DNA of 64,000 nt from Blepharisma japonicum (taxonomy: Eukaryota > Ciliophora > Heterotrichea > Heterotrichida > Blepharismidae): positions 620,001 to 684,000 of the forward strand of contig CATKHK010000006.1 of NCBI GenBank assembly GCA_949751835.1, in the 5' to 3' direction. Position 1 is the first letter of the stretch, and each line of letters starts with the position of its first letter. The notes under the pieces were generated by a model. That model ran no database searches, had not been told where the DNA came from, and saw nothing but the letters and a program-made list of their open reading frames with translations. Below are positions 5,386 to 63,813 of this stretch, piece after piece. A program made the translations under genes and the position numbers.

Positions 5386-5677
5386 ATAATTTAAATTTTT
5401 AAACTATTCATATAATTTGAAGTATTCCAGTTTCTAACTAAGTATTGAGAATTCCAGAATTTAAGAAATTTTCTCATTCAATTTCATTCAACATGCTTTT
5501 CATTTTATTCGAGCATGAATACTGAATTTCTATAGACTGATAATTACTGAACACTTTTGATAGTCTAAAAATTATTTAAATCAAGCTAACGAAGCCTAAT
5601 ATAATTTAAATTTCATACTGCAAAGTTTTTAATTTTTTAGGACTGCTCATGCTTTTTCAATAATTTTAAATATTATA

Positions 5678-10978: not shown

Positions 10979-13900
10979 ATGTCTTTTACAGTATCATTAT
11001 TTATTTTGATTTTTTCATCAGAAAATATACTTTATTTGGCCAGTGCCAAAATTTTTGAATATCAACTTCACAAAGGTATTGGCCAAATTCTTGACGATAT
11101 CAGTGGAAATTATAACCACTGTGTAAATGGCCTCACAGCTGAGCTTGAAGCTACAGATATAACTTGGACTACCAGAGGAGCTTATTTTTCTAGCACTACT
11201 TTACTAACCCCTCCTCAAAATTCAGTAGTTCAAAATCCCTTATCTTATCTTTTTCTCATTTTTCAAGCTGTATTCAATAATTGTTTCTAGTTTGAATATC
11301 TGATCTGAGGTTGATCTCCCAATAACAAATCCAGCTTGTGACGTGTGCATGATCTTTTGGTTCTTGTTTCTTCAGTCAGCCTTGTTGCCAGTATTTTGTC
11401 CAATATCTTGTAAACCGAGTTTAGCAGTGTGATCGGCCGATAATCTTCGGGTGTCCTTTTCCCTTTCTTCTTAGGTAGCAGAACCACCAACGCCTCCTTC
11501 ATTTCCATAGGGAGCCTCTTCTCTACTCAAATTTGTTGTATCAACCTGCAATAAATATCTACCAGAGCTTCTCCTCCATACTTAATTAATTCAGCAGGGA
11601 CTCCGTCCGGGCCCGTAGTTTTGTTATTTCCCAATGCTTTTATGGCTTGAACTATTTCCTCCTTCGATGGCGTTAAGGGTAACTCTTCTTCCAGTTCCAT
11701 CCTTATTACAAGATCTGTATATTGTGTCTGCCATCACATCACCAAGTCTTCTTCGTCTTTACCACTAAACTTCACAATATTGGTTCTCTTCTGCCTCTTC
11801 ACTTTATTATATAATCCTCACATATCAGTTCTGCCCAGTATTGCATTCTCTATTTCACGTTCTCTTCAAGTAATTGCTTCACTTCTTTTCTTTTCCCTCT
11901 TAAACTCCTTCATCACCAGTCTATACTTAGTCATAAGCTCATTGTAATCTGCTTTGCTTACTTTCAGGGCGTTCAGTGCTCTTCATCTGTATCTTCGAGC
12001 TCTTCTGAGCTCAGCAAGGGCATCACCACTTATGTAGCTTCTGCCACCGTCCCGTACCCCCAATACCATTTCCGCCGCATATAGTACAATCCGGTTAATT
12101 GCCTGATAATTCAGTTCAATGCTGGCACCCATTTCCAACCTCTGAATCTCCCCTTTTATCACTTCCTGGTATAGTTTGGCATAAGTTTGGCTTTTTAGTC
12201 TGTCAATCCTGTACTTCTTGCATGGCGATTTCACTACTTCTCTCCAACCTTGCCAGATCTTTAAAACCAGTGGTAGATGGTCTGATTTCACCGGGTTGCT
12301 ATTGAGGCAGTTGAAACTTATCACTTTTCCCATTATATGTAAGTCGACAGCCACGTAGTCCAGGCAGAATGCAGATCCACTGGAGTGTAGGTGCGTAGGT
12401 GCGTTCAGATAGAGGATTTTGAGTCCTCATTCTGCACAGAATTTCATCATTTCGTCTCCATTGCTATTTGTATTCTCTGATCATCACCCCTTTATGTGGG
12501 CATTGAAATCTCCAACAACTATTAGGTATTTTCCTTTCGCCCTGTCTCATGCACAGGCTTCATTTATCCCTTCATAGAATGTTTCCACTTCCTCTTTCTC
12601 GCCTTCGACAGGTGAATAAGCCTCTATAACCACCAGGTCATTGATAATCGCTGCAATAACTCTACCTTGTGTTTAACTCATGGTCTCATGGGCATTAGGT
12701 TTTTTCTGTATAGGATCCCCACGCCTGCACTCCTCTCAGTACCTGAATTGTGATATCAGCCATGGTCCTTGAACCTGGGCAGCAGTTCGTACTCAGCGCA
12801 GTGTGTCTCAGCTACTGCCATCACGTCAACCCCATTTTCCTCTAAGAATTCCTCTAGCTGATCCTTCTTCTGCTTGATCCCGTGAGCATTGACATGTGCA
12901 ATCGTTATTATCCTGTGCTCTTTGTTTTTTGATCGCTTCATTGGTGGGTAAAATGATTTGGCTTCTTGAGCTGTCCTCTTGCCTTCATAAATTTTGTCAC
13001 AGTTGATTGTATTCCCATCCTCGATCTTCCTTTTATTATTATCTCCTATATACGGTGACTTATTAGTCTTATCCTCCTCTAATATCATTCGCCTGCCCAA
13101 TATTTCCCCCACTGACTGCATGTGCTGCTTCCTTTCCTTTCCTCTTCTTTTCTCTTCTCCTTTATGCCCTCAGCCTTGACTCTTTCCTGCCTTTTCGCCT
13201 CCATTCTAGCATGCCCTTCTTTGTTATGCCCGATCTGATTGCACTGCATACATACCAGTGTTGCTGCATGATTCAAGTAACTCTTTTTCCTTTAATTATG
13301 AGCCCCTCAGGTAGGTCAATCGCTTCTTCAATCCTCGCGAATTCCGCGTAGATTCGATATTTCGAGTTGGTGTTAAAATGCACTGTATATGTTGCATCTC
13401 CGTCCCTCAACGTGTTTTCAGACACAACTTCGACCACTTTGCAACTACTGGCTAAAGCATCGACCACGTCTTCAATCCCTACCTCTAATGGCAATGTTAC
13501 CTGGACTAGGTATCTTTGAAAGTTAAGCTCTCCATTCTTCCCTACTGGCCCCAATGGCACAATTCTCCTCTGGACTCCATGTTGGACTGATATTCTTCCT
13601 GGGTCTAGTACCTTCTTTTTCGCCGCATTGCTGGTGAAGATGACCATGGCATCGCCTGACGGCAGCTGCCTACATCTCAATATCTCTCCTGGGTCAGTGG
13701 CGTGCTCAAGTTCAAGTATTAGCGCTGAGTATAGCTCTCTTTTTCCAATCTGGTCATCTCTCTTTGCATATTTTGAGAGGTAAATCTTGATGGCATTCTC
13801 CAACAGATGGTTTTCTTGCATTTCTGGTAACGTCTCTACTGGAGCCGCATATCCGAAGAAGGTACCACTACTGCTTATTCCCAAGAACTGAAGATCTTCG

Positions 13901-21188: not shown

Positions 21189-22685
21189 TTAATTAAAGGT
21201 AAATTGGCAGCGAATTAGATATCGCAGCTTTATTTGTCCGATATCGTAGACTATATATTCATTATACCGGAGCTCTGATTGAGCAGCTTGAGGATTTTCT
21301 TTTAGATTCCCAGTATAAAGGGAAACTCCTGGGTAAACTTCGAATTCGTCTGTAGGACTGGTTCGGCCGACACCTATAACACTGTGACAAGGAGAAGGAG
21401 GACACTTGAAAGATTTTGCTTTGAGAACTTGATGAGGGTTGCCAAGGGCTACTTCGCAGAGAAGGAGGATCCCTTCAGGAGAGCTTTGAGTTGCGTTACA
21501 GTACATTGCAGATTTTGATGATAAATCTGCAAGATAAATCCCTTTTCCAAACATATAGCCGCTGGAAGGAGCTTCTTTTGGAGCGATTCTTAGGCCTTGT
21601 GATAGAATACCAACGATATTTGTGATTCTAGAGCCATGTCATAATAGTTTTTTGTTAGGAAGTCTTGAAAAAGATCAATATCTTGAAGACTCATTTTCTC
21701 TATCAATTTCAAAAGCCTGTACCACTTCCATATGGAAATTATGTGACGGCGCATGTGTACTATCAATCCATCCTTGCAAAGTCCCTTTAAACTCATTAGA
21801 CACCGCACTTATTCTGCATTTTAATTGAGAATAATACACATCTAAAGGATTTCTCGTCTCCAAAAGCTTCAAACTTCTCATAGATAGTGAATTGGCAATC
21901 TCTAAGTCCAAAAGTGTATCTAAAAGTGCCAATTTTTCTTTTACTTTCGGGACACGATTGATTGGTGGTGGTCTTTTCATGCCAAAATTCTGAGGAATGT
22001 TTGTATAGAAATCATTTGTCAATTCTAAAATTTTAGATTCCCTGTTACTTGTTGTCAAAACTTGGTAGATTTCTCGTAAAATTTTGTAGCCTTTTTGTAT
22101 TTGGGATTTGCTTAATTGACCTAAAGGGCATTGGTCAGGGTCTAAATTTAATTCTCTCATTGTTCTTTTCATGCGATCAAAATCCCATATAAATTCCATT
22201 AAATTAGCAACCTCTGTATCACATTCAATGGGGAAGCTTTTAGCTTTTTCTACTAATTCGCGGCGCTTTTTCTCAAACCTTATATGTGATTCTAATTTTT
22301 TGCTATCAGATTGAACTTCGACAAGTACGTATTTTCCTTCCGCGCGATTGAATTCAGTCCCCCATTCATTTTTGGTTTTTTGGTGGAATTTTTTTTTGAA
22401 TTCAATGATAGCTTCAGCTTTAGAAGAACAAAGACTTAAGGAAGATGCAGGGTTAGATGCACCTACTCTTCCTCACTTAGCCCAGAAATAAAACCCATTA
22501 TCTTCGAGCACCATAATCTGGTAAAATTTATTGTGGCCTTTTACTCCATATGACACATCTGTAAGATTTAACATAGCTGAATAAGGCTCTACTACTTTTG
22601 GGTTTGGCAAACCAGTTTCGAGCGATAAAGATCTATTTACAGCTGCAGGAGCTGGAGGCTCTATTTCCATTTCTGTTCCCGCCAT
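21189..22685 (-). CDS. PARP1/2/3-like poly(ADP-ribose) polymerase with WGR domain
   Basis: 498 residues with TGA as Trp. Order: short tail; WGR domain (about 50-150, FYFWAKWGRVGASN, the first Trp of WGR encoded after a TGA); PARP regulatory helical domain (about 170-310, PLGQLSKSQIQKGYKIL); catalytic domain to the C-terminus. The H-Y-E triad is present: LLWHGSR (His350), SKSAMYC (Tyr395), RYNEYIVYD (Glu476), so poly-ADP-ribose synthesis from NAD is predicted. There are no zinc fingers, so it is built like PARP2/3 and likely acts at DNA breaks in the nucleus. It sits 8 nt upstream of taxilin. PARP-type fingers do occur in this window, but in the F-box family at 44-53 kb. Confidence 0.95.
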
Positions 22686-38837: not shown

Positions 38838-39551
38838 TTATTTAATTAAAACCCAAGGTAAGCTTTTTCCTTCCTTTGCTCTGGCCTGATATTCTTGATA
38901 TCTTTTTCTCAAAATATTATAAAAGCTTGAAATCCAATAAAACGACAAAATTTCGAGCAAAAATGCTATTGTCCTCACAGGCCAAAAAACGCTCCAAGAC
39001 GCCACTACTTGATAAATAATTACAGGCCCAATAATAAATCTCGCAAAAATAAACGTAAAAATATATGTTAGCTCAGCTAACAAATAAATTTTTGTTTCTT
39101 TTTGATTGTTATACCTCAGTATTTCTTTTATTTGTAAAGATGGATTTGGTAAAACTCCAATGAACGATCCATACATTATTTCCACGATTCCGTTGTTGCT
39201 TGAGAGTCCACAAATTGACCCAATAATTACAAGTGAGTGGTGGATGACAATAAAATTGTCAGAAATCCCAAATTTTATTTTGCATATTGTGTCGTAAATG
39301 TGGTATCCTAGCATCCACAATATTATTTTGATTTGGAAATATGTGTTGTCTGAGCCTAGTTTAGCTTCACTCATTACTGTGATGGCAGTGAAAGTAAGGT
39401 AGAACACTCCATGTATAAAAGTAACTAAGCGATTTCGGAAATCCCAAAGTTCTCTTGTAGGTAAACCTGCATCTATAACTTGTGAGAACAAGAAGAATAA
39501 GAAAGTCCAAAATGCGATTGATATAAATAGAGTTGAAAGGTAGTCAATCAT
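38838..39551 (-). CDS. TLC-domain multi-pass membrane protein, tandem copy A
   Basis: 237 residues with six or more hydrophobic helices. The pattern WDFRNRLVTFIHGVFYL, then GYHIYDTICKIKFGISDNFIVIHHSLVII, and PSLQIKEILR followed by FARFIIGPVIIYQVV, matches TLC domains of the TLCD4/TMEM136 kind (R--S--HA, D-I--, HH-L, N-S---R, R------). TLC proteins act in membrane lipid handling (some are ceramide synthases, but the catalytic signature of those is not evident). Nearly identical to copy B at 40768, with about ten residue changes by eye. Confidence 0.82.
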   Translation of the reverse strand: MIDYLSTLFISIAFWTFLFFLFSQVIDAGLPTRELWDFRNRLVTFIHGVFYLTFTAITVMSEAKLGSDNTYFQIKIILWMLGYHIYDTICKIKFGISDNFIVIHHSLVIIGSICGLSSNNGIVEIMYGSFIGVLPNPSLQIKEILRYNNQKETKIYLLAELTYIFTFIFARFIIGPVIIYQVVASWSVFWPVRTIAFLLEILSFYWISSFYNILRKRYQEYQARAKEGKSLPWVLIK

Positions 39552-40767: not shown

Positions 40768-41481
40768 TTATTTAATTAAAACCCAAGGTAAGCTTTTTCC
40801 TTCCTTTGCTCTGGCCTGATATTCTTGATATCTCTTCCGCAAAATATTATAAAAGCTTGAAATCCAATAAAACGACAAAATTTCGAGCAAAAATGCTATA
40901 GTCCTCACAGGCCAAAAAACGCTCCAAGAAGCTACTACTTGATAAATAATTACAGGCCCAATAATAAATCTCGCAAAAATAAACGTAAAAATATATATTA
41001 GCTCAGCTAACAAATAAATTTTTGTTTCTTTTTGATTGCTATGCCTCAGTATTTCTTTTATTTGTAAAGATGGATTTGGTAAAACTCCAATGAACGATCC
41101 ATACATTATTTCAACGATTCCGTTGTTGCTTGAGAGCCCACAAATTGACCCAATAATTACAAGTGAGTGGTGGATGACAATAAAATTGTCAGAAATTCCA
41201 AACTTTATTTTGCATATTGTGTCATAAATGTGGTATCCTAGCATCCACAATATTATTTTGATTTGGAAATATGTGTTTTCTGAGCCTAGTTTAGCTTCGC
41301 TCATTACTGTGATGGCAGTAAAAGTAAGGTAGAATACTCCATGTATAAAAGTAACTAAGCGATTTCGGAAATCCCAAAGCTCTCTTGTAGGTAAATCTGC
41401 ATCTATAACTTGTGAGAACAAGAAGAATAGGAAAGACCAAAATGCGATTGATATAAATAGAGTTGAAAGGTAGTCTATCAT
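40768..41481 (-). CDS. TLC-domain multi-pass membrane protein, tandem copy B
   Basis: 237 residues, same length as copy A and intact. Visible changes from A include AFWSFLF (A: AFWTFLF), VIDADLP (A: VIDAGLP), KLGSENT (A: KLGSDNT), EILRHSNQ (A: EILRYNNQ) and ELIYIF (A: ELTYIF). Both keep the conserved RNR--FIH, YD-IC, HH and R---GP positions, so both are probably functional. Confidence 0.82.
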   Translation of the reverse strand: MIDYLSTLFISIAFWSFLFFLFSQVIDADLPTRELWDFRNRLVTFIHGVFYLTFTAITVMSEAKLGSENTYFQIKIILWMLGYHIYDTICKIKFGISDNFIVIHHSLVIIGSICGLSSNNGIVEIMYGSFIGVLPNPSLQIKEILRHSNQKETKIYLLAELIYIFTFIFARFIIGPVIIYQVVASWSVFWPVRTIAFLLEILSFYWISSFYNILRKRYQEYQARAKEGKSLPWVLIK

Positions 41482-45393: not shown

Positions 45394-46359
45394 ATGAGAA
45401 TTAAATTTTATGCAAATTCAGGTGATCGCTGAAATACTTGCAAAGAATGCAAAGAAGAAATAAATTACTCCAGTATAGAAATTAAGCTTCCTTATCATCC
45501 TAAATACTATTTGCACTTGCATTGCTATACACCAGGACTCAAGCAATACATCTATAAAAAAGATATAGAATATAGTTCTACAATGAGTCAAAGTAAAAGA
45601 GAAATTGTAACCTCTTGGCTTAATAAGTGAAATGAAAATTACACTCCAATAGACGAAGATGAAATTGATATTCCACTAGTTAATAAACTTGCTTATTCTG
45701 AGCCTTCTAAATACAGACGTGCCTGATTAGAAGTGCTCAAATTTCTTGACGCAAAAGAAATAGCTTTAACAATTTCTCACATAAATCGAGATTTTTATAT
45801 TGTTTCATGTGATGAGGAGCTATGACATTTTAATTGCTCGCGAGATTTCACAAAATTAAATCTGAGGGGAGAAACTTATAGAGAAAGATATATTAATTCA
45901 TGAACGGCTTGCTTTTGGTGTCACAAAAACCCAGATAGCTCATATGTCCTCTTAACTACATACCTATGCTCAAGTTGCTCACAATTAGAACGCTTTGAGA
46001 TTATTTCTAAAACTGATATTAAGCATTATTACGGCATAAATCCCAATGTTTTACAATTGAAATATGGTAAAGGGAGACACAAAAGCGTTTCATTTAGATA
46101 CATGATAGAAGATGCAATAAATGTTTATTGCCAAAAACAAAAAGATTCTTTACTAAAGGAAATGAGAGAGGGTCACATAAAAGCAGATTTAATTGAGCTT
46201 GTAGAAAATATCAGCTCTAGAAGCATGATTAAAAAAACTCCTAATTTAAGTGATATTTCGAGTTTAACATATAAGCAGAGGCAGTTATATGTGATGATTT
46301 ATGATTATTTGAGAACAGGGAAAAATGAAGCGAAGCTCAAACGTAAGCTTTTAGAATAG
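45394..46359 (+). CDS. PARP-type zinc finger/F-box protein, family member 2
   Basis: 321 residues when TGA is read as Trp, beginning MRIKFYANSGDRWNTCKEC. Finger 1 keeps C-x2-C and H-x-H-C (LHLHCYTPGLKQYIYKKDIE). The F-box part is YRRAWLEVLKFLDAKEIALTISHINRDFYIVSCDEELWHFNC. The second finger is CFWCHK----CSSC followed by ISKTDIKHYYGINPNVLQLKYG, close to the XPA-like ITKTEAK-YLL segment. The helical tail has KADLIELVENI, which recurs in other members. Identity to member 1 is moderate across the whole length, so the pair is not recent. Confidence 0.8.
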
Positions 46360-46594
46360 CATTAATAAGTAAATAAGTTATTTTAATATTTTTGCTATAA
46401 CTGCAAGATAAATTATGATTCTCACTAATATAGAGCCATTCTATCTTTATTATCATTCAAATTGTATCATTTATTTTTTTATAGTGTATTATACTTTTTT
46501 TATATATGAGTAATACGCATGCTTAGCAAAATCAGCTATTACACATATATTGTATTTCAAATATTGATTAAGCCCCCTCATTATAACAATTAAT

Positions 46595-48610
46595 ATGATA
46601 GCCAGCATTAGCAAAAACCAAAAGCTTTCCACTGCAGGCCAAATTTCCTCCTATAAAAAACAATTGAATCAAATTTTAAAAGATCTTCCTCTTCAAGCAT
46701 ATCTCGATTCAATATTTAATCAAGAATTCCTTGATGACAAAAACAATTGCTTTCTTTGTTTAATCGAATTTTTAAATGATGAAACTCATTGCTATTTTTC
46801 AATTTCCCAAATTAAAACCGATATAGATGAAGCTATTCAAAATTGTGCTTTAAAATTTACTGATAATAAAATAAAATCAAAGTTTCAATTGCTCCAAGAA
46901 ACTATATCTCAATACTTAGATTTCTTTAATCAACCGATGGTTGATTCTTTGTGCAGCTTATGAAAAAAGCTTAAAAAGCATCTAAAGCATTTGCCAAGCA
47001 TGAATGGCACTGAGCATAATCAGAAAATTGTAAGGCATTATACTAAAGAAATTCAGGAAATGGAAATAGGTCATGAAGACTTTTCAATTTCAGAAATATA
47101 TACAGATAAAAAAAGCATATGCGATGGTATCAATTGCTCTAGATTTGAAAGCCTTTATAATAATACATGCTACGCTCAAAACTTTGAATGCTCATTCAAT
47201 TGTGGATGCTCTGAGACAAATTGCTTCAATCGAGAAGTTTCAAAGAGAAATGAGAATTATGTATGTGGAATAAATCTTAGTGAACGGCCCTCTTTTGGAT
47301 TTGACAAACGATCGGCAATGATGTTGTGCTATATTTTAGTAAATACCAAAAAAGCAAAGCTGTTTATAAGCAAAAGTTTGCTTAATACAATAAATTGGAT
47401 TGGCTTCAACTATAACAAAGATCTTATTCACTGTCTGTCAACAATTATAAAAGTAAATGATTTCAATGTCGAAGAGAAAAATTTTGCAAAAACTTTGCTT
47501 AATGCGATTTATTCTCTTGGAACAATATTTGGAATAGAAAATATACTAAAAGAATTCATAGTTTACCAAAAAGGATTCGGGATATTTAATAATGGCCCAG
47601 AAAGTATTTCAAAGAATGCATTCTTAGCAGAATACATTGGACAGATTTTTAACCCCGCTCAATTTTATGAGAAAGATATGATAATAAAGCAAATTGTCAA
47701 AAGTATATATGGAGAAACTCAACCTTTTAAAAATTTTTACAACGTTGAGCTTGAAAGGGAAGCTGATGATATGAAAGGCTATGAAATATTTTTAATAGAT
47801 AGCAGCGTCAAAGGAAACTGGGTACCAAAAATAAATCATTCTTGTAAGCCCAATTGTGAGCTTAGAACAATTATTTCATGTGGACAGTATAAAATGGCTC
47901 TATATGCAATAGATAATATAAATCCAAGAGAAGAACTTTGCTGAAATTATGGATCTTATACGGAAATTGAAGAAGAACATAAAAACAGTATATGCTTATG
48001 CTCACAATCTAATTGCAATGGATTTTATCTCTATTTAAATAATGCCGAAACTGGCCAAGTGCATTTTTCTGGGAGTTTTTATATTCTATGTCTTTTATGA
48101 CAGACCGAGTATTCATCATCTATGGAAGATTACATAAGGCAATATAATCTAAATACATCTTTGCTTTTTAATTGCCCAGAATGGCTAAAATGCTGAGTTT
48201 ATTTCACTCTAAAGAATATTGAAGCCCTATGTGGTTATAAAAAAGAAAAACTTAAAGAGATGGGCTCAACAGATATTGATGAGGAAGTACAAAAATTTTA
48301 TTGTGTACTGAGAAAGGAGTTAATGATAACAATGAACAAAATAAAATATATAATTCAAAATATAGATGATCATTTGCACTCTCCAATTTATATCTTAGAT
48401 GATGATGAGATTTTAGATTATTTATGAGGAAACAAGGATTTTTCAATAAAAAGTCGATTGAAGGCAATTTTCAAAGGTGATAAAAACATTTCAGTCGAAA
48501 ATCTCCTTAGAAAAGAAAATAAAAATTACACTCCAATAGATGAAGCTGAAATTGATATTTGAATAAGTTTGATTATTCTGGGTCTTCTCAAAATAAGCAT
48601 GCTTGATTAG
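46595..48610 (+). CDS. SET-domain histone methyltransferase, ATXR3/SDG2-like, with chimeric tail
   Basis: 671 residues with TGA as Trp. After a helical N-terminus comes a Cys-rich pre-SET (CDGINCSRF, CSFNCGCSETNCFNREV). The SET region follows: YQKGFGIFNNGPESISKNAFLAEYIGQIFN, INHSCKPNCELRTIISCGQYKMALYAIDNINPREELCWNYG, then post-SET CLCSQSNCNGFYLYLNN. FYNVELER-ADDMKGYEIFLIDSSVKGNWVPKINHSC matches plant ATXR3/SDG2, an H3K4 trimethylase. From about 48525 the frame enters a degraded PARP-finger/F-box copy (NYTPIDEAEIDI) and ends at TAG. The last 30 residues are therefore not native to the family. SAM-binding NHSC and catalytic Tyr are kept. Confidence 0.85.
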
Positions 48611-49979: not shown

Positions 49980-51434
49980 ATGAGAATTTCATTTTATGTA
50001 GAAGACAGCCAATGCGATAGAAACTGTAGCTATTGCTCAGAGGCTATAGAAAAAGGAGATTTAATAGTAAGAACTTGATATTTTGTAAAATTTTATTATT
50101 TTCACCTGAACTGCTATACCCCAGGACTTAAGCAGCAGATTAATAGAAAAGACTTACAAGTCTATATATTAAGCCCAGAAAAAGAAAGAATCTTCATTTT
50201 GTGGCTTAATGAATGAAATATTAATCACTCTCCAATTAATGAAGCAGAAATTGATATCCCAATGGCCTCTAGACTCACCTACTCTAAGCCTTCTACACAT
50301 AGACGAGCATGATTAGAAATCTTTAAATTTCTTAACTCAAAAGAAATTAGTTTATCAATTTCTCGAGTAAATAAAGATTTTTATCATATTTCATGCGATG
50401 AAGAATTATGATATTTTAATTTTATAAGAGAGTATGGACAAATAGAGCCAGATATAAGAAACTACAGAGAGCAATATATTTTACGTACTTTGAGAAATTG
50501 CAGCTGATGCCACAAAAACTCTGATGAGGGAAATATTGTGGGGAATCTCTTTAATAAGTCGCTTTGTAAAGCTTGCAAAGGATTGAGACGTTTTTATAAA
50601 ATGACTGTAAAACAAATAGAAAGCCAATATGAGGTCGATTCAAGATTTTTGGGTTTAAAATTCGATAATAGTGTTGAAGGGTGAAAGAGGACTTATAGAT
50701 ATATGGCATTAGAAGCAATAAAGAAAAATAATGCAAGCTTAATAAAAGTTAATTCATCTGAGATAGGTGTGACTGAAGAAAATAATTTGGATTTGATACT
50801 TCCAAAAAATTTAACATCTTCATCTTTGGATAAAAGAATTATCAAAGTTATTATAGTTGGAGACTCAACTGTGGGCAAAACTTCTATTATGAATCAATAC
50901 GTTATCAAACGATTTTCTGAAACTTATAGAGTTACTATTGGAGCCGATTATATGGCGAAAAATATAAATATTGATCGCAGACCAATGACCCTTCAAATTT
51001 GAGATAAAGCAGGCTGAGAGTGTTATTTCAGTGAAGAGGCCAAGTTTTACTGTGAAGCAGACTGCTCTATATTGGTCTATGATATAACATCACGCAGAAG
51101 TTTTGATAATCTTGGAATGTGAAAAGAAAAAATCTTGTCACAGAGAAACGATAAAGCTGATGAAAATTTCCCATTTATTGTACTAGGAAATAAAGTTGAC
51201 AGAGAAGATGAAAGAAAAATCTCAAATGAAAGTGCGAGGCAATGGTGTAGAGAAAATGGAAATATTCCGTTTTTCGAGACTTCAGCCAAGGAGTATGTCA
51301 ATCTTGATTGTGCATTTATGATGATTGCAAGAAATGTATTGATGCATGCTGGGATAAACACATTTGAGTATGATTTCGAAGACCCAGATTCTGAGAAAGC
51401 CAAAAAAAAACCCAGAGAATGCATTGCTATCTAA
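49980..51434 (+). CDS. PARP-finger/F-box protein fused to a CaaX-ending Rab-like GTPase, family member 3
   Basis: A single 484-residue frame when TGA is Trp; three ATG-initiated pieces join in the same frame. PARP-type finger ligands are C16, C19, H42, C45. The F-box-like stretch is at about 105-150 (RRAWLEIFKFLNSKEISLSISRVNKDF). The second finger is CSWCHK----CKAC (about 175-205) with an XPA-like helix. Residues 287-450 are a Ras/Rab GTPase: P-loop GDSTVGKT (294-301), TIGADY, WDKAGWE (341-347), NKVD (404-407), ETSAK (433-437). Normal switch II is WDTAGQE, so the catalytic Gln is Trp346 (codon TGA) and Thr is Lys; slow or absent GTP hydrolysis is predicted. The end KKKPRECIAI is a basic stretch and CaaX box (prenylation, Ile favours geranylgeranyl). 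Confidence 0.88.
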
Positions 51435-53239: not shown

Positions 53240-56090
53240 TTAGTTATTTCAAAGTTCTTTTAATCTATTAAGTTTTATTTGCCGAAGGATTAAGTGACAT
53301 GAAGGAATTTTCGTAATCAGATGTAGAAATGGAATTGGACATCATTGGGGAGTATGTGATATTTTTCGTAATAGTTTCCTTAAGCACGTTTCCATTCTTG
53401 CTTTTTCTCCTGTTAAGAATGATTTATTTTCATTTCGATCTGCAATGTTACCCATCCCATATAGATTCCCTCTAATAGAACTTTCAATTAAAATTTTTAT
53501 AGATTTATAATTGAAGATATCTTGTCTAATGCATCTTCCTATGTTGTTCAAGCAAATCTTGAATTTAGGTAATCTTAATTTGCATTGTTCTACTGAATAT
53601 CTATTAATAAAAAATTTCCCATCTTTTCTCACTTTAATTATGTTCCCCAAATATTTGTAGCTTTTTGTTAGGCTTGCATACTTAGATTTATAATTGTCTA
53701 GGTAAATCTCATTCTTTCTTGATAAAACCATAATGGCTGTTTTATCAATCCCTTTATTTAATTCCATATGATTTTTATTGCATCATTTAGTCACTTCTTC
53801 ACATGCTTTGGAAATAGACTGATAGTTATCACTGGCAACTAAAATATCATCAGCATATGCTCTGATAAATAAGTTTCTATTATTTTCTAATGCATCAAAT
53901 AAATCATTTATGTATATGTTAAATAGAATTGGGCTAAGAGGTGAACCTTGTCTCACTCCTCTATTAATATTTATTCATTTCATTTTAGTTCCTAGTGCTC
54001 TTAAAGTTTGGTTTTTGAAAATCAGTTTTATTGAGTTAATTAGTTTGTCTGGCAATTGATAGCTTTCCAACTTCTGGATTAAAATACTTCTATTCAGATA
54101 ATCGTAAGCTTTTTTAAAATCTATAAATAAAAGAAAAACATTAGAAACCTTACTAATATTGAATTTTTCATCAATTCAGGAGTTTAATATCTCATATTGA
54201 ATTTTCGCAGATTTTTTCTCTACAAATCCAAACTGATTGCTTTTGATGATCCTTGTTAAAGCATACCGATATTTATCAAATGTGCAACTTTCATATAATT
54301 TAACTAAAAAGTTTATTAATGCAATCGGTCTGTAATTTTCAGCTAAATTTTTATCCCCTCTTTTATAAATAGGAATATCAAACAGCGATTTTGTTTTTCA
54401 ATACATCGTTTATTGCATCAATCTTCAAAAATGTTTGTAATGATATAATTGAACTCATTAGGAAAATGAAGATTTGATATGCCATCAGGACCTGGGCATT
54501 TGTTAGGGTTAATATGTTTTCTCGCCTTTTGGATATCTTCTAACTCAGGAATATAAAATTCATTTTCATCATATATAAAGAGCTCGAGTTACTTTCATAT
54601 AATTTTTCATAGAATATCTTTCATATGTCATCCATATCATTATCGCCACGAATATTATTTCTTTTAACATATTTTAATTTTTTGTTTAAACACAAGCAGT
54701 CATCTTTTTGTTTAATAATATCTAAAATTCCATTCACTTGCTTATTTAAGAGTTCATTTTTCTCATAGATTTTGATTTTTTGTGTTTTTCTGCTTCTTCT
54801 TCCGTAAGCTCATATTAATGCTTTTTGAAATGCTCATATTCAGTTATTAATATCAATTTCAGCAAGTTTACTTAAAGTATTCTTCATGTTTTCATAAGCA
54901 TTAATATCTATTTTTATATTTTTATTAATCTGAAAATCTAAGCATCTATTTTTTCTGCTCATCTTGATAAATTGAATCATATGTGAAGTTTTTTCTGTTT
55001 CAAAGAGGAAAAGATCTAGAGGAAACTTGCTAAATGTGTAATCAATGATTTTCCGACAATTTATTTTATTAAATGTAGCATCATTAATTGAGTTTCGTAT
55101 TTTATAGTTATATTCATCTAGAAAATTCAGCAAGATTTTTCTTGTAATATCACTTTTATTTGATAATACCCTTTAATATGTAAATTGAAGTCTCCTGTTA
55201 TTATATCACTTTGTCATTTTTCAATATTCTTCACTAACTCTATAAATCCTTGTATGCTACACTTAGGTCTAGCATAAACAAAGCAAATTCTGAATCCTAA
55301 TCCTTCTACAATTGCAAATTGATATTCATCATTACTCATCATTTCTAAAGCTTTTCAATTTCCTGTATCTCTTGCATACACTGCAATCCTCAATTATCAA
55401 GCTTTAGGAGTTTATTGAAATGCTTGCTTATTAGTTCTCCATAGCCACTCTCCAGAATTCCAACTATGTCACAGTTAGATCAATCAACTTCGTTTATTAC
55501 ATAATTTTTAATGCCCAGTTTATTATTTTGAATGTTCACACACGCAACTTTAATTCCATCTTTGTCTGAAGTTAGCATATTTTTATCAGTTTTAATCTCC
55601 TTGTGCAAGTCCTTACTAATAAGCTCATTAACGTTATAACTAATCAGTGATTTGAATTTTTTACTTAAAGGTCCGTTGGATTTTATATCAAAACAGATGC
55701 AATTTCAATTCCTTTCTTTGCAAAAATTATGTATTAAATATTCATTTGGCCATATCACTGAATTAAGTGACAATAACTCTTCTTTCTTTCCTTTTTCAAT
55801 ATAACTATAGACTTCATCTTCATTTTCATATGCTATTTTGATGAGAGCCTGAGGGAAATGATTTATTTTAGAGTAATAGATTTGTGAACTTATGCTTCTG
55901 TTAATTTCATTCATGAAATTTTTTAGTTGTATTTTATAACGTTCTGCAATATTTACTGTTAAGCATCTATCCTTATAGTGGCCTACTTTATTGCAATTTC
56001 ACAATATCTGGTGTATTAATGCTCAATTTTGAAATTTTTTCCAAGAATTTTAATGTTTTTACCAATATTCCTCGCATCATCTATATTAAT
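53240..56090 (-). mobile_element. Second APE-type LINE, 5'-truncated, with YADD reverse transcriptase
   Basis: Minus strand; TGA reads as Trp in the element too. From its 5' side: RRM-like scrap, zinc knuckle NCNKVGHYKDRC (first Cys lost), AP-endonuclease (VACVNIQNNK with Asn, GILESGYGEL with Glu, IITGDFNLHIKGY), then RT: HINPNKCPGPDGIS, NYRPIALINFLVKLYE, LLFIDFKKAYDYLNRS, GVRQGSPLSPILFNIYINDLF and AYADDILVAS (catalytic Asp pair). A C-terminal domain follows, with the frame ending TAA near 53240. At least three frameshifts are visible (near 55370, 54400 and at the 5' end), so this copy is probably inactive. It is AT-rich like the host, unlike the LINE at 11-14 kb. Confidence 0.88.
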
Positions 56091-56093
56091 TTA

Positions 56094-56450
56094 GTAATAA
56101 AATTCTTTTTCTGTAGAAGCTTGCCAGTGCATCAGATTATGTAGTAAGTGTGCATACGTTATAGAAAAAGGAGATTTAATAGTCTGAGCTGTTCGTGCTG
56201 ACTACATTTATTGCATCCATATAAACTGCTATATACTTCAAAAACTTTATAGGTTTTTTATAATTCTATTTTTTTGATCAGCCAAATTTATTATCCACCT
56301 TTAAAGTCTTAAATTTTTAACTATTATAAAAATTTTAAAGCAAATTTTTAATGCTCTTTCAAACTTCTTAAGCTGAATAATCCATAGCTTGAACAATATA
56401 TTTATAAAAAGACATAGATACTTGACATTTAGGTATGGTTACCTCTACTA
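56094..56450 (+). pseudogene. Decayed N-terminal part of a PARP-finger/F-box gene
   Basis: Starts at a lost ATG and reads FSVEACQCIRLCSKCAYVIEKGDLIVWAVRADYIYCIHINCYILQKL, keeping C-x2-C and H-x2-C of the PARP-type finger and closest to member 3 (IEKGDLIVRTWYF). A further scrap SLEQYIYKK at about 56390 equals GLKQYIYKKDIE. The F-box and later domains are absent. The LINE ends exactly at its upstream edge. Confidence 0.75.
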
Positions 56451-56489: not shown

Positions 56490-57215
56490 CTACTTATCTT
56501 TCTTAATCTCCACAAACCAAGGCAAACTTTGTCCTGTTTTGCACCTTATTTTGTACTCTCTATATCTTTTCTTCACAATAAAATACATAGTATACGCCCA
56601 CTTAAAAGATTGCATTTCTAATAGAAATCCCATAAGTCTTATTAGCCAAAAAACATTCCATGATGTTACAACTCCATAAGTTATAGGCGGTCCAAGAATA
56701 AATCTCCCAATGAAGAAGGCTATGATAAAGACTAATTCAGCAATTAAATGAGACTTGGTTTCCTTTTGCCCAGTGCACTTTAGAATTTCTTTTATATGTA
56801 AGAATGGATTAGAAACCTCAGCAAAAAAAGTTCCATGCATAATTTCGATTGTCCCATATGTTCCTGAAACTCCAGCTAATTCTCCAATAATTGTAAGACC
56901 ATGGTGAAGCATAATAAAATTGTCATAGATCCCAAATTTCCACATACATAAGGTATCATATATAAAGTAGCCTAAAGAAATCGCAATTACCGTGATTTCA
57001 AAGTCGTTATTTAGGTCTCCCATTCGCCGGCCAGAAGAAATTGCCATTGTGGTTGAGACAAGTAAAAAGAGTCCATGGATGAAGGAAACAATGCGATTTC
57101 GGAAATCCCAAAGCTCTTTGGTAGGCAAATTTATATTGACTACCAAAGATACAAGGATAAACACGATTGTCCATACAGGAGCTGAAAGGACAGCTACCAG
57201 TAGAGGATTAACCAT
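56490..57215 (-). CDS. TLC-domain multi-pass membrane protein, copy C (diverged)
   Basis: 241 residues, same layout as the tandem pair: ELWDFRNRIVSFIHGLFLL, GYFIYDTLCMWKFGIYDNFIMLHHGLTIIG, NPFLHIKEILKCTGQKETK and GRFILGPPITYGVVTSWNVFW are conserved. Identity to copies A/B is roughly half by eye, so it is an older paralog. It lies 187 nt downstream of a Kelch gene on the same strand, the same pairing as at 40.8-43 kb. Confidence 0.85.
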   Translation of the reverse strand: MVNPLLVAVLSAPVWTIVFILVSLVVNINLPTKELWDFRNRIVSFIHGLFLLVSTTMAISSGRRMGDLNNDFEITVIAISLGYFIYDTLCMWKFGIYDNFIMLHHGLTIIGELAGVSGTYGTIEIMHGTFFAEVSNPFLHIKEILKCTGQKETKSHLIAELVFIIAFFIGRFILGPPITYGVVTSWNVFWLIRLMGFLLEMQSFKWAYTMYFIVKKRYREYKIRCKTGQSLPWFVEIKKDK

Positions 57216-57401: not shown

Positions 57402-58658
57402 TTAAACTTGGGTCACTGTTATTTGGAAAGTGTTCATATCGAATTTATATATTTTATCAGTATAGTCCATAAAATAGCAATTATGATTTAAATAAACTTG
57501 ATATGCTGCTCTAAAGTGAAAGCTAGTCTGCAATGTCCCTATAACTTCTCAATTGCTCAGTTGATTTGGCTCACTTTCATATATATTTTTGGATGATTCG
57601 ATTAAAAATATTCGATTTTCTGCTTGAAGTAAGACTTTGCTCGTATTTATTGCAAAGCTGAGATAAATCTCATCATATATATCTTGATTATGATTGTATG
57701 AATATAGTTTTTTGCTTTGATAAACAACAAAAACAATTCCACAATTTCCTGCAAGACATGAAACATGACTTAGATTTTCCTTCAGAGGGCAAGTTTTATA
57801 CCACTTATCAGTTGATAGCTCATATTTTGCTGCTTGATTTCATGAAACACCAGCAGCATTTCATCCTCCAAATAAGTAAATAAAGCCATCATGATGCACA
57901 GCACCCATACCCACTGATGGATCTCCATCTGAAAGCTGTTTAATAGAGCTATCCGAGTATAATATAAATGCTGTTCTTGATGAAGGATTATTGCCATAGC
58001 AAAATATAGATTTATCAGGAAGAAGGCACATAGAAATACCATTAGAAGAACTAACATTGCTTTGAAGAGTACCTACCTGCTGTTCAGACTTTGAAAAATT
58101 GGTTAAATTTACTCTAATTGAGTTTTTTGTGTTAGCCCTAAAAAATACAATTTCATTATTTTCAAAAGTATTGATTTTATCTTCTTTGCTAAAGCCAAAA
58201 TCCGAATAATTGAAGCCACACCCAAATTCATTTAATTTTTTTCGGGCACTATCTAAATCTAAAATTAATAGTTTTTCAAATGGATTTTGATTTATCTTTG
58301 GTACTTTTTTAATAGGGTATATATTTTTAATTAAATCAACTTGATTTTTTCTTATTTTTTCGATATTTTCTAGTGCTTTATTAAGTGACAATTTTAATTC
58401 TTGTATTTTTTTATATATTTCTTTGATTAATTTTTCTTTTATATCAAGCAATTCTTTTGATAATTTGTGCATTTCTTCAATTATGAGTTCTTTATTTTTT
58501 TGATTTATTTTTAATTTCAAGGATTCAAATCTGTGCTCTTCAATAGAGGCGGCTAGAACATGTTGGCACATATGGATACTGCAAGAATGGCTGATAGGAT
58601 CCGTGCATTTGCAGAAAACTTTGACTTTATTTTTGCATCCTTGCTTTCAGCACTCCAT
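57402..58658 (-). CDS. Finger/coiled-coil/Kelch protein, copy 1 (418 aa)
   Basis: Starts MECWKQGCKNKVKVFCKC (the Trp is TGA). Residues 1-40 carry Cys/His pairs (C3, C8, C-K-C, SC, H, C-H) resembling a B-box-like zinc finger. Residues about 45-110 are a Lys/Glu coiled coil (ELRIIEEMHKLSKELLDIKE, then YKKIQELKLSLNKALENIEKI). Residues about 165 onward are a Kelch-like propeller: ISMCLLPDKSIFCYGNN, MGAVHHDGFIYLFGGWNAAG and later blades. TGA at 57861-57863 is Trp after FGG. The protein ends TMTQV- style (NSDP equivalent TVTQV). Copies share the same ends and length. Such B-box/coiled-coil/propeller layouts resemble TRIM-like adaptors without a RING (inference). Confidence 0.85.
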
Positions 58659-58829
58659 AATTAAGATAAAAATTATAGATTCTAGAATATGAGTTAATAA
58701 TAAAAGCAATTGTATTCTCGATTATTTAATATATTTTACTTATTAACATTCGAGATTTACCCTTCATGGAGCAGACCAGATCCATCCTAATGAAGTTGAA
58801 TTCAGTGCATAAATTAAATTATGGATATA

Positions 58830-60086
58830 TTAAAGCTGGGTCATCGTTAATTGTAAGCTGTTCATATCAAATTTGTATATTTTGCAACTTCCGTCCATAA
58901 AATAGCAATTATGATTGAAATAAACTTGATATGCTGCTCTGTAATTAAAGCTAATTTGATATGTTCCTATAATTTTTCAATTGCATAGTTGATTTGGCTC
59001 GCTTTCATATATATTTTTGGATGATTCGATTAAAAATATTCGATTTTCTGCCTGAAGCAAGACTTTGCTATTATATACTGCAAAGTTGTTATAAATCTCA
59101 TTATAAGTATCTTGATTATGATTGTATGAATATAGTTTGCTACATTGATAGCTAACAAATATAATTCCATAATTTCCTGCAAGACATGAAACATAACTTA
59201 GATTTTCCTTCAGAGAGCAAATTTTATACCACTTATTAGTTGATAGCTCATATTTTGCTGCTTGCTTTCATGGACTGCCTTTAGCATTTCATCCTCCAAA
59301 TAAGTAAATAAATCCATCATGATGTACAGCACCCATACCCGCCGATGGATTTCCATCTGAAAGCTGTTTAATACTGTTATCCGGATATAATATAAACGCT
59401 GTTCCGGAAATAGGATAATTGCCATAGCAAAATATAGATTTATCAGGAAGAAGACACATAGAAATATAATACGGATAATCTATATTTCTTTGAAGAATAT
59501 CTAATTCCTGTTCAGACTTTGAAAAATTGTTTAAATTGACTCTAACTGAGTTTTTTGTGTTAGCCCTAAAAAATACAATTTCATCATTTTCAACAGTATC
59601 GATTCTATCTGTTTTGTTGAAATCAAAATCTGAAGGATTAAAACTACACCCAAGTTCACCCAATTGTTTTCGGGCACTATCTGGGTCTAAACTTAATAAT
59701 TTTTCAACTGAATTTTGATTTATTATTGGTATCGATTTTATTGAGTATATCTTTCTAATTAAATCAGCTTGATTTATTCTAATTTTTTCAATATTTGCTA
59801 TTTCTTTAATAAGCGACAATTTTAATGCTTCTATTTTCTTATATGTTTCTTTGATTAAGTTTTCTTTAATATAAAGCAATTCTTTTGATAATTTGAGCAG
59901 TTCTTCAATTATGAGTTCTTTATTTTTTTGATTTATTTTTAATATCAAGGATTCAAGCCTGTGCTCTTCAATAGGAGAAGCTTGGGTATGCTCGCATACA
60001 TGGTTTTTGCAAGAGTAGCTGACAGGATTCGTGCATTTGCAGAAAAATTTCACTTTATTTTTGCATCCTTGCTTTCAGCACTCCAT
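58830..60086 (-). CDS. Finger/coiled-coil/Kelch protein, copy 2 (418 aa)
   Basis: Same length and layout as copy 1, intact. N-terminus MECWKQGCKNKVKFFCKCTNPVSYSC; coiled coil ELLKLSKELLYIKENLIKETYKKIEALKLS; DSARKQLGELGCSFNPSDFDF, then EIVFFRANTKNSVRVNLNNFSKSEQ and propeller blades. Reading TGA as Trp at 59289-59291 continues FGGWNAKGSPW. C-terminus LTMTQL. High similarity to copies 3 and 4 across coding sequence and parts of the flanks. Confidence 0.85.
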
Positions 60087-60114
60087 GATTAAGATAAATT
60101 TATTAATTCAAGAA

Positions 60115-60560
60115 AATGATATGCTACTCTTCTACTATAGTTAATATGCGATACTCATATAAATTTTCAATTGCTCAGTTTGATTTGGCTCACTTCATAT
60201 ATATTTTTGGATGATTCGATTAAAAATATTCGTCTTTCTGCCCGGGGCAAAACTTTAGAAGTAATTCATAATTTCCTAGAAAACATAAAACTTGAGTTAG
60301 ATTTTCCTTGAAGAGGCTAATTTATATTCTCTGCTGGATTTTTCTTATTATTTTAATACCTTAATAATCTCAAAACCTATAAATACTTAGCCCAATATGG
60401 AAAATTTCTTAATATTCCAAAAATATACTGCAAATCATTTCTCTGATGATACCACTTATCAGTAATAGTTCATATTTTTCTGCTTGATTTCATGAATTAT
60501 CTGAAACATTTCATTCTCCAAATAAGTAAATAAAGTATCATGAAGCGCATTACCCATTTT
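60115..60560 (-). pseudogene. Decayed Kelch fragment with an unrelated 120-nt insert
   Basis: Matches the C-terminal half of the finger/coiled-coil/Kelch genes (CAATTGCTCAGTTTGATTTGG to the FGG blade near 60530) with indels and stops. Between about 60325 and 60445 lies sequence that has no counterpart in the intact copies, with a GCCCAATATGG motif. The rest of the gene is missing. Confidence 0.7.
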
Positions 60561-60574
60561 GCCTAATAGATCAT

Positions 60575-60889
60575 GATGAAGGATGATTAAATTATCATAG
60601 TTTGAAAATTTCTGCATGTGTAATATATATTATTTATAAAATAGCCTAAAGAAATTGCAATTGCCATAATTTCTAATTCGTCACTTGAGTCTCCCATTCA
60701 TTGGCCAGCAGATTGCCATTGTAGTTGAAGCAAATAAAAAGAGTCCATGGATGAAGGAAATAATTCGATTTTGGAAATCTCAAAGCTTTTGGAAGGCAAA
60801 TTTATATTTACTACCTGAAATGGAGAGATAACACGATTGTCCATAGGAGCTGAAAGAAGAGCTACGAGTATAGGATTAACAATGTTTTA
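60575..60889 (-). pseudogene. Decayed TLC-gene fragment
   Basis: Minus-strand match to the first half of copy C (about 56905-57216), including the stretch for RNRIVSFIHGLF and GRRMGDLNND, with many indels. Together with the Kelch fragment at its left it marks a lost TLC-Kelch unit. Confidence 0.8.
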
Positions 60890-61064
60890 TAAGATTAAAT
60901 ATTTACTTTTAAATTTAATGTAATAAGAAGCGTTGTTTAGTTTGAATTTTTATATACATTTTTTACTAGTATGAAAATCAATTTGGATTAATTATTAAGT
61001 TAAAATATAATAATTCTATATGTCACAATTTGAAAATAAATTAATTTACAGGAATTAAGATGGA

Positions 61065-62294
61065 TTAAACTTGAGTCATAGTTAATTGCTTGGTGTTTAT
61101 ATCAAATTTATATATTTTGCATCCTTTGCCCATAAAAAAGCAATTATGATTGAAATAAACTTGATAAGCTGCTCTGTAATTATAGTTAATCTGAAATTTT
61201 CCTATAATCTTTCAATTATTTAGTTGATTTGGCTCACTTTCATATATATTTTTTGAGGATTCGATTAAAAATATTCTATTTTCTGCTTGAAGCAAGACTT
61301 TGCTATTATCTGCTACAAAATTTTTATAAATCTTATTATGAGTATCTTGATTATGATTGTATGAATATAGTTTGCTACTTTCAAAGCCAACAAATATAAT
61401 TCCATAATTTCCTGCAAGACATGAAACATTACATAGATCTCTATTCAGACAGCAAATTTTATACCACTTATTAGAAGATAGCTCATATTTTACTGCTTGA
61501 TTTCATGGACTACCTTCAGCATTTAATCCTCCGAATAAGTAAATAAAGCCATCATAATACACAGCACCCATACCCGCTGATGGATCTCCATCTGAAAGTT
61601 CTTTATAAGTGCTATCTGGATATAATATAAACGCTCTTCCAGTTGCAGGATAATTGCCATAGCAAAATATCGATTTATCAGGGAGAAGACACATAGAAAT
61701 ACAATTAGAACGAGCAACATTGCTTTTAAGAATATCTATCTTCTGCTCAAACTTTGAAAAATTGTTTAAATTTACTCTAACTGAGCTTTTTGTGTTAGTC
61801 CTAAAAAATACAATTTCATGATTTTCGAAATCAAAATTTAAAGGATTAAAACTGCACCCAAATTCATCCAATTGTTTTCGGGCACTATCTAAATCTAAGC
61901 TTAAAAGTTTTTCGAGTGGATTTAGATTGAGTGCTGGTATTGATTTTATAGAATAAAGCTTTCTAATTAAATCAGCTTGATTTATTCTAATTTTTTCAAT
62001 GTTTTCCAGCGCTTTAATAAGTGACAATTTTAATTCTTCTATTTTCTTATATGTTTCTTTGATTAAGTTTTCTTTTTTATCAAGCAATTCTTTTGATAAT
62101 TTGCGTAGCTCTTCAATCATGAGTTCTTTATTTTTTTGATTGACTTTTAATTTCAAGATTTCATACCTGTCCTCTTTAATAAAAGAAGCTTGAGTATGCT
62201 CGTATATATGGATTTCGCAAGAGTAGCTTACAGGATCCGCCCATTTGAAGTAAACTTTGACTTCATTTTTGCATCCTTGCTTCCAACACTCCAT
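61065..62294 (-). CDS. Finger/coiled-coil/Kelch protein, copy 3 (409 aa)
   Basis: MECWKQGCKNEVKVYFKWADPVSYSC: the internal C-K-C of other copies is here F-K-W, so that zinc ligand pair is lost. The coiled coil and propeller are as in copies 1, 2 and 4, ending LTMTQV. Nine residues are missing between SFNPLNFDF and ENHEIVFF, explaining the shorter length. TGA is Trp at 61503-61505. TAA stop at 61065-61067. Confidence 0.85.
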
Positions 62295-62429
62295 GATTAA
62301 GATAAATTTATAAAATTAATGAAATGAAAATAAATAAAAGATTATTCCTTAAATATTTAAATATAATTTTCTTAAGTAATTCATAATTCAGATTTTATTT
62401 AATTTCCTTCAAATTTTGATATGTGAAAC

Positions 62430-62500
62430 CTCAGTAATTCCAACAATTGTAAAACCATGTAAAGCATAATAAAGTTATCATAAATCCCACATTTTTATTG
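62430..62500 (-). pseudogene. Small TLC-gene scrap
   Basis: A stretch of about 60-70 nt matches 56880-56945 of copy C (the HHGLTIIGELAG region: CCAACAATTGTAAAACCATG, AAGCATAATAAAGTTATCAT). It sits just left of the fourth Kelch gene, repeating the TLC-next-to-Kelch order. Confidence 0.65.
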
Positions 62501-62556
62501 GCATTTATAGAGAATTTACGCATTCTATAAATTAAATTATTGAAATTTTTTATGAA

Positions 62557-63813
62557 TTAAACCTGGGTCATCGTTAATTGCAAACTGTTCATATCAAATT
62601 TATATATTTTGCAATTTCTGTCCATAAAATAGCAATTATGATTGAAATAAACTTGATATGTTGCTCTACAACCAAAGCTAGTCTTCAATTTTCCTATAAC
62701 TTTTCAATCGTGTAGTTGATTTGGCTCACTTTCATATATATTTTTATAGGATTCGATTAAAAATACTCGACTTTCAGCTTGAAGCATGACTTTGTTAGTA
62801 TTTAATGCAAAATTGAGATAAATCTCATTATAAGTATCTTGATTATAATCGTATGAATATAGTTTGCTGCTTTGATAGCCAACAAATAAAATTCCAAAAT
62901 TTCCTGCAAGACATGAAACTTGACTAAGATTTTCTTTCAGAGGGCAAATTTTATATCACTTATTAGATGATAGCTCATATTTTGCTGCTTGATTTCATGA
63001 ATTACCTGCATCATTTCATCCTCCAAATAAGTAAATAAAGCCATCATGATATACAGCACCCATGTTTCCTGATGGGTCTCCACCTGAAAGCTGTTTAAAA
63101 CTGCTATCAGGATATAATATAAACGCTGTTCCGGAAATAGGATAATTGCCGTGGCAAAATATAGATTTATCTGGGAGAAGACACATAGAAATATAATGAG
63201 GACTCTCAATATTGCTTTGAAGAATATCTACACACTGCTCAGACTTTGAAAAATTGTTTAAATTTACTCTAACTGAGTTTTTTGTGTTAGTCCTAAAAAA
63301 TACAATTTCATTTGTTTCAGCATTATCAATGCTATCATTTTTGTTGAAATCAAAAGCTGAAGGATTAAAACTACATCCAAATTCACTCAATTTTTTTCTG
63401 GCACTATCTAGATCTAAGCTTAATAGTTTTTCAACTGGATTTTGATTTATTTTTGATATTGATTTTATTGAGTAAATCTTTCTAATTAAATCAGCTTGAT
63501 TTATTCTAACTTTTTCAATATTTTTTAGTGCTTTAGTAAGTGACAAATTTAATTCTTCTATTTTCTTATAAGTTTCTTTGATTAAGTTTTCCTTTATATC
63601 AAGCAATTCTTTTGATAGCTTCTGTAACTCTTCAATTAGGGCTTTGTTGTTTCCCGGATTTATTTTTAATATCAAGGATTCAAGCCTGTGCTCTTCAACA
63701 GAAGGAGCTTGAACATGTTCGCATACATGGTTTTTGCAAGAGTAGCTGACAGGATTCGCACATTTGCAGAAAACTTTGACTTTATTTTTGCAGCCTTGCT
63801 TTCAGCACTCCAT
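62557..63813 (-). CDS. Finger/coiled-coil/Kelch protein, copy 4 (418 aa)
   Basis: Intact, same layout as copies 1 and 2. Starts at ATG 63811-63813 with MECWKQGCKNKVKVFCKCANPVSYSC (TGA as Trp4). Coiled coil LQKLSKELLDIKENLIKETYKKIEELNLSLTKAL; then NSVRVNLNNFSKSEQ, ISMCLLPDKSIFCHGN and propeller blades; TGA is Trp at 63016-63018; ends LTMTQV with TAA. Head-to-head with the inverted fragment at 63889. Confidence 0.85.

Follow-up and report, generated by a model that had tools for sequence, protein, structure and literature searches.

One reading frame of Blepharisma, here called copy A, encodes a PARP-like CCHC finger, an F-box, a Cys4 finger, a Rab7-like GTPase domain and a C-I-A-I end in a single polypeptide, as confirmed by analysis of the sequence (Table 1), and this F-box/Rab7 chimera looks like a real, maintained gene and not a misreading, because a second Blepharisma species has the same altered switch. 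On balance, we regard copy A as probably an SCF substrate receptor that a lipidated, Rab7-like and probably GTP-biased module would anchor to endolysosomal or phagosomal membranes. The gene lies in a window of 64,000 nucleotides (the whole stretch of DNA that was analyzed, positions 620001-684000 of its contig), and the genome searched for relatives is a 45-Mb assembly of 224 contigs.

Table 1. Position of copy A, its parts and its relatives, with an adjoining reverse-transcriptase frame; coordinates refer to the window unless stated otherwise.
Feature	Position	Strand	Evidence or remark
Copy A, whole gene	49980..51434	+	484-aa PARP-like finger/F-box/Cys4/Rab7-like fusion; UGA = Trp; no intron recognized
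PARP-type CCHC finger, residues 15-57, ligands C16, C19, H42, C45	50022..50150	+	PF00645 E 0.0033, below cut-off
F-box, residues 109-150	50304..50429	+	PF12937 (F-box-like) E 7.9e-4, PF00646 (F-box) E 0.0097, below cut-offs
Cys4 finger, XPA/Rad14-like, residues 174-199 (C174, C177, C196, C199)	50499..50576	+	
Linker between F-box module and Rab domain, residues 250-284, replacing the stand-alone tail	50727..50831	+	Alignment with stand-alone siblings
Rab7-like GTPase domain, residues 285-455, G1-G5 present	50832..51344	+	PF00071 E 2.8e-47
Rewritten switch II, residues 338-362, WDKAGWE for WDTAGQE	50991..51065	+	P0002, Rab7 paralogue comparison
C-I-A-I, CaaX-like C-terminal end	51420..51431	+	C-V-V-I in P0002
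Copy B, tandem sibling fusion, 482 aa	51734..53182	+	Degenerate G1/G3, no Cys near C-terminus
Copy C, fusion in pieces	Same contig, near 696-698 kb (L022)	-	Degenerate P-loop, interrupted
Stand-alone sibling of the N-terminal module, 331 aa	43995..44990	+	
Second stand-alone sibling, 321 aa from in-frame ATG	45394..46359	+	ORF from TTG at 45388
Isolated 44-residue remnant, PARP-type finger part of the family	56104..56235	+	E 4.7e-5
RVT_1 ORF, non-LTR retrotransposon-like, beside the cluster	53240..54406	-	

When TGA is read as Trp, the frame is open throughout its 484 codons up to the stop; nine TGA codons are present, and with TGA as a stop the frame would end at codon 33. Both UGA as Trp and introns of 15-16 nt match the published description of B. 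stoltei (PMC9942806), and a bacterial or viral origin is unsupported; from the code, the tiny introns and the closest proteins, the host is taken to be a Blepharisma different from the sequenced B. stoltei. Stretches of the form GT...AG, 15-17 nt long, are present within the frame, and an intron or frame artefact was considered and rejected, given that the alignment with the B. stoltei protein P0002 is gap-free save for four linker residues. The product, at 484 residues including an N-terminal module of ~280, compares with about 200 residues for a single-domain Rab. A Pfam scan placed Ras above its cut-off over residues 289-454, with the Arf family (PF00025) scoring far below Ras, and placed the F-box and zf-PARP matches below theirs. 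A preliminary description of this DNA had read here one continuous 484-codon frame with a Ras/Rab domain and a CIAI end, and had put the domains in the order given above; the frame is indeed single and coextensive with P0002, the layout was read correctly, the Pfam match and the G1-G5 motifs bear out the GTPase, and the CIAI end is present.

P0002 (480 aa) aligns with copy A from end to end, with 374/484 residues identical (77%) and the four linker residues as the sole gap. Identity was 73% over residues 1-60, which include the PARP-like finger, 84% in the F-box, 80% in the Cys4 finger, 67% in the linker (20/30 for residues 251-284), 85% in the G domain (146/171), 92% in switch II (23/25) and 52% in the hypervariable end, where the Cys and the terminal Ile are kept. 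P0002 retains all eight zinc ligands, G1-G5, the C-x-x-I end and WDKAGWE, and it carries Trp at seven of the nine positions at which copy A encodes Trp by TGA. This comparison bears on two readings that would deprive copy A of its standing as a functional fusion. In the first, which we consider highly improbable, two adjacent genes for an F-box protein and a Rab7 would have been misread as one through a missed stop or splice; stand-alone siblings of the module are common, but the coextensive annotated protein, itself indirect evidence for a single transcript, comes from a species in which introns had been identified by RNA-seq mapping ahead of the prediction of genes (PMC9942856), the 484 codons run without a stop, the module adjoins Rab in copies B and C too, and no P-loop intron of the kind seen in the Rab7 genes is present in the Rab part. 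The second reading, to which we give hardly any credence, takes copy A for a decaying, functionless by-product of recombination in the cluster, in which there are indeed the interrupted copy C, the remnant of 44 residues and a SET gene whose tail resembles the family. Yet full-length identity of 77% to the second species goes with kept zinc ligands and G motifs, and a free-drifting frame would have accumulated stops.

Searches of protein databases passed 1/357 and, in a second search, 3/4117 candidates at E <= 0.01; the second search yielded a family protein of metagenome origin (P0004). A second pair of family members across the two species is formed by P0003 of B. stoltei and L050 of the present genome (252/270 residues). 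The search with copy B returned none of 3827 candidates at E <= 1e-10 and missed even P0002, so its silence about a copy B in B. stoltei carries no meaning. Since the method depends on five-residue words in common, an absence outside the genus Blepharisma counts for little.

Sequence similarity assigns the first 250 residues of copy A to a family that has expanded in this lineage. Residues 1-251 have matches at 26 places in the genome, most of which lack a Rab domain; three of the 26 lie in Rab-bearing copies (A, B and part of C), and another is the 44-residue remnant. We aligned 24 members; P0002 and the first open piece of L011 are included, whereas the fragmented copy C, the remnant and the C88 copy, which has an internal stop, are left out. 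Among the stand-alone rows, 15/21 are 301-341 aa long, and Pfam Ras is found in 3/24 rows, those of copy B and of the two A-type proteins. The C-x2-C...H-x2-C ligands are kept in 24/24 members and the full Cys4 set in 23/24, the exception being copy B. At E <= 0.01, Pfam matched F-box-like in 17/24 members, F-box in 13/24 and zf-PARP in 7/24. In the genome scan the F-box-like cut-off was exceeded at nine family places, and zf-PARP was found at six places, all within the family, one of them just over the cut-off. The zf-PARP score of copy A is 18.6 bits against a gathering threshold of 39.3, and that of the best sibling (C25) is 39.5 bits in the genome scan and 37.1 when scanned as a protein. 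The weak N-terminal Pfam matches of copy A thus gain support through the family. It is on the family that the F-box call rests, because at E <= 0.1 P0002 lacks an F-box match in Pfam, and both stand-alone siblings in the window lack an F-box as well as a zf-PARP match.

A profile built from 18/21 stand-alone rows (L011, L019 and L049 left out) was searched against the PDB, with 50 sequences listed at E <= 10. PARP1 appeared at 2.2e-5 for a two-finger chain (single fingers at 0.096 and 2.4), the KDM2A F-box at 2.3e-5 with other F-boxes from 0.0057, Rad14 at best at 0.011 and XPA at best at 0.017; the list also includes two unrelated chains (0.026 and 0.042) and LIM domains from 0.22 upward. Structure models were built from alignments that hold no other loci of this genome. 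The model of residues 1-265, from seven sequences, reached a pLDDT of 69.9, and Foldseek ranked PARP-1 Zn1 first (probability 1.00, E 0.012), with Skp1-F-box complexes appearing at rank 9 and below (probability 0.96-1.00, E 0.024-0.28) and none of the 185 matches at E <= 0.001. The search for an F-box and a PARP finger, set beforehand as a test of the preliminary description, was therefore answered by matches in the family HMM, profile and fold searches. For its XPA-like label on the Cys4 finger the evidence is divided: the four Cys are there in 23 of the 24 members and Rad14 and XPA are among the profile matches, but PF05181 gave no row in the Pfam scans of copy A or of family members.

The first finger shares its CCHC ligand pattern with PARP1 zinc finger 1 and the DNA ligase III finger; the spacing from the second Cys to the His is 18-25 residues across the 24 members (22 in 15 of them), whereas it is 28 in PARP1. 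The PARP1 DNA-contact residues are absent from the module family. In the profile alignment, six PARP1 Zn1 residues including Phe44 are missing from the family, and the position of PARP1 Arg18 is Asp13 in copy A and Gln13 in P0002 (hand-counted numbering); Phe44 and Arg18 are among the PARP1 contacts at a break given in a simulation paper (PMC12108792). Judged by these contacts, a role as a DNA-break finger is not supported by the sequence, and a general role in binding DNA, RNA or protein is possible. We therefore think it improbable that the zinc fingers bind damaged DNA and that the protein moves between the membrane and DNA or ubiquitin machinery. The nearest solved relatives, PARP1 Zn1 for the first finger and, more weakly, Rad14/XPA for the second, would favor such a role, but beyond the missing Phe44 stretch and the Asp or Gln at the Arg18 position, the CaaX-like end speaks for a membrane-bound pool, and the Pfam rows of copy A contain neither a PARP catalytic domain nor a DNA ligase domain. 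Of the function that the preliminary description had proposed, the membrane and ubiquitin halves appear reasonable, the DNA half is not supported, given the absent PARP1 contacts, and the shuttling is unsupported. That description did not cover the module family, the sibling fusions, P0002, the Gln-to-Trp exchange or the missing Rab7 intron. A PARP with WGR, regulatory and catalytic domains is encoded at 21189-22685 (-), 27 kb from copy A; it has no zf-PARP match at E <= 0.01.

The Rab domain of copy A has Ypt7/Rab7 as its best PDB sequence match (5.3e-58), and the Rab7/Ypt7 rows of Foldseek are 37-48% identical to it. The full-length AF2 model, from a five-sequence alignment, was poor (pLDDT 49.5), and the 50 Foldseek matches listed for it are Rab/Ras-type GTPases. 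The G motifs of copy A are GDSTVGKT, the switch I residue T319, DKAG, NKVD and TSAK, and of these GDSTVGKT, the switch I Thr, NKVD and TSAK are identical in P0002. At the catalytic Gln of WDTAGQE copy A has Trp346, and P0002 likewise has Trp. Within switch II, copy A differs at 10/23 columns that are invariant among six Rab7 paralogues; the apparent excess of changes there is suggestive only, because 24/91 invariant columns elsewhere differ too. The two C-terminal Cys used for Rab geranylgeranylation, with which the six closest Rab7 copies end (CC), are absent from copy A, and the Cys four residues from the end that defines a CaaX box is found in both CIAI (copy A) and CVVI (P0002). The genome holds three Prenyltrans matches, one each for a farnesyltransferase-, a GGTase-I- and a RabGGTase-like beta subunit. 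TBC-type Rab GAPs bring their own Gln, so GTP hydrolysis by copy A may persist, the effect of the Gln-to-Trp exchange being extrapolated by analogy. Rab7(Q67L) is constitutively active and GTPase-deficient (PMC10954720).

The module is joined to a Rab domain at three places, A, B and C, all on the same contig, and the P-loop is degenerate in both B and C. Simple counting, which carries no error bars, gave dN/dS values between B and C of 0.32 for the finger and first F-box part, 0.60 for the middle and 0.81 for the Rab part. Between these two copies the module seems to be kept while the Rab part drifts under weak constraint, and therefore the Rab part would not be essential in each copy. A 115-nt insertion whose ends carry TA-containing repeats interrupts copy C; this insertion is consistent with a retained internal eliminated sequence (PMC9942856). 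The loss of G1 residues and the apparently relaxed Rab part in B and C, together with the Trp at the catalytic Gln position in copy A, might be taken to mean that the Rab part is a non-switching pseudo-GTPase, merely a folded anchor or dimer surface. We consider this unlikely for copy A, as the G motifs are exact in A and P0002 and the G domain is conserved at 146/171 residues, which would be superfluous for a nucleotide-free scaffold.

Our preferred reading, that of a membrane-tethered SCF receptor, can be set out as a sequence of predicted steps. The F-box of copy A would dock Skp1-cullin, the zinc fingers and helical segments would select a client, and the lipidated Rab7-like domain would keep the complex on late-endosomal, lysosomal or phagosomal membranes. 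The parts of an SCF ligase are at hand in the genome, with 12 Skp1 matches and 14 cullin matches, nine of which span most of the profile. We place the complex at the lysosome or phagosome because in Tetrahymena Rab7 is found on lysosomes and in puncta at phagosomes (PMC2954822). With Trp in place of the catalytic Gln, and a rewritten switch II, in both species, the Rab7-like domain probably holds GTP but hydrolyzes it poorly and no longer responds to the usual Rab7 partners. In that case it would not cycle as a switch but would provide a constant membrane anchor, or serve as bait for some new partner. A sharper version, which we put forward tentatively and hold to be doubtful in its full form, is that the SCF receptor has its membrane address built in, as a CaaX-lipidated Rab7 derivative permanently loaded with GTP, that the rewritten switch II of this derivative captures a dedicated endolysosomal or phagosomal partner as the ubiquitylation client, and that such a Rab-coded ubiquitin ligase arose by retro-copy capture independently of Rab40.

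The intron structure of the Rab genes bears on how the fusion arose. The six best-scoring Rab-only places (L002, L003, L004, L005, L008 and L009) carry an intron-like insert inside the P-loop codons, of 16 nt in L005 and 15 nt in the other five; these introns are called from sequence. Copy A reads straight through the P-loop codons with no insert there, as do two more distant Rab7-like genes. That the fused gene is intron-less and that a reverse-transcriptase ORF adjoins the cluster suggests that a retro-copied, cDNA-like Rab7 was joined behind a stand-alone F-box gene in the tandem cluster; intron loss by other means is possible.

Whether Rab7 was captured once or twice is not settled by the trees. 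Two captures, one for A and one for B/C, have in our estimate a little less than an even chance and are compatible with the receptor reading. In its N-terminal module, A clusters with stand-alone genes, apart from B/C (96/90; 95/93 in a second tree), A and B join Rab at different depths of the module tail, and the first Rab tree, with long outgroups in, placed A beside one conventional Rab7 (84/74) and apart from B/C. In contrast, the Rab tree without the long outgroups put A and B/C on one side (88/93), and a single clade of Rab-fused N-terminal modules was not rejected (p-AU 0.12). In one alignment A and B share two columns against the six Rab7 sequences, and B keeps the Rab7 letter at 17 columns at which A diverges. 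Two alignments disagree on where the Trp of copy B belongs, and for this reason shared derived residues of A and B were dropped as an argument for a single fusion.

Other features of the window include a SET-domain protein at 46550-48610 (+; PF00856 E 4.1e-14), the end of which resembles by eye the 'PIDEAEID' segment of the module family, as if recombined with a family member. A non-LTR retrotransposon-like ORF with Exo_endo_phos_2 and a partial RVT_1 lies at 11287-12633 (-). A tandem array of similar proteins with MECWKQGC near the start occupies 57402-63813 (-) and extends into L021 and L022; Kelch-like repeats were found in the one member scanned, and several copies are split into two ORFs. 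Related proteins of 237-241 aa, multi-pass by eye, recur through this region and are encoded at 38838-39551, 40768-41481, 56490-57215 (-) and 5543-6268 (-) of L022, and the one member scanned had no Pfam match.

The fusion of a small GTPase to a ubiquitin adaptor is already known, since Rab40b, TRIM23 and the F-box/BTB-ARF proteins precede copy A. The combination of F-box and Rab7 with a PARP-type finger and a CaaX-like end is new as far as the listings of narrow word searches of the literature reach, in which no paper was recognized as describing an F-box-Rab fusion. Copy A also points to a family of PARP-type fingers that expanded together with F-boxes and lacks the PARP1 break contacts. The cluster, if our reading is true, offers a natural series of ordinary Rab7, altered fusion, degenerate fusion and module with no Rab, from which it could be learned what a GTPase adds to a ligase receptor.

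Relative to Rab7 (Ypt7) itself, copy A has Trp at the Gln67 equivalent, a rewritten switch II, C-I-A-I in place of CC, and an N-terminal module. Like copy A, the Rab40 family unites within one chain a Rab GTPase and an adaptor motif for a cullin ligase, and Rab40b binds Cullin5 through its SOCS box regardless of nucleotide (PMC8129794). The Rab40b SOCS box serves Cullin5 and Elongin B/C, whereas copy A has an N-terminal F-box of the Skp1-cullin type, zinc fingers and a Rab7-like GTPase, and SOCS_box is absent among the Pfam families listed for it at E <= 10. TRIM23/ARD1 likewise joins an N-terminal ubiquitin-ligase module to a C-terminal small GTPase (PMC8358228, PMC5794181), but there a RING, B-box and coiled coil precede an ARF, in place of the F-box and Rab7 of copy A, and the Pfam rows of copy A contain no RING and no B-box. 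ARF-family proteins with an F-box or BTB, and a Rab-BTB-BACK-Arf protein, are reported as lineage-specific (PMC8358228) and share with copy A a Ras-superfamily small GTPase fused to an F-box or BTB; the GTPase of the F-box proteins is of the ARF family, and Rab7, a PARP-type finger or a CaaX end is not described with an F-box in section 13 of that account. If our reading is true, copy A would add to Rab40-SOCS, TRIM23 and F-box-ARF a further route by which a small GTPase came to be fused with an adaptor of ubiquitin ligases, and what is new in this route would be the union of a late-endosomal Rab7 with a Skp1-type adaptor.
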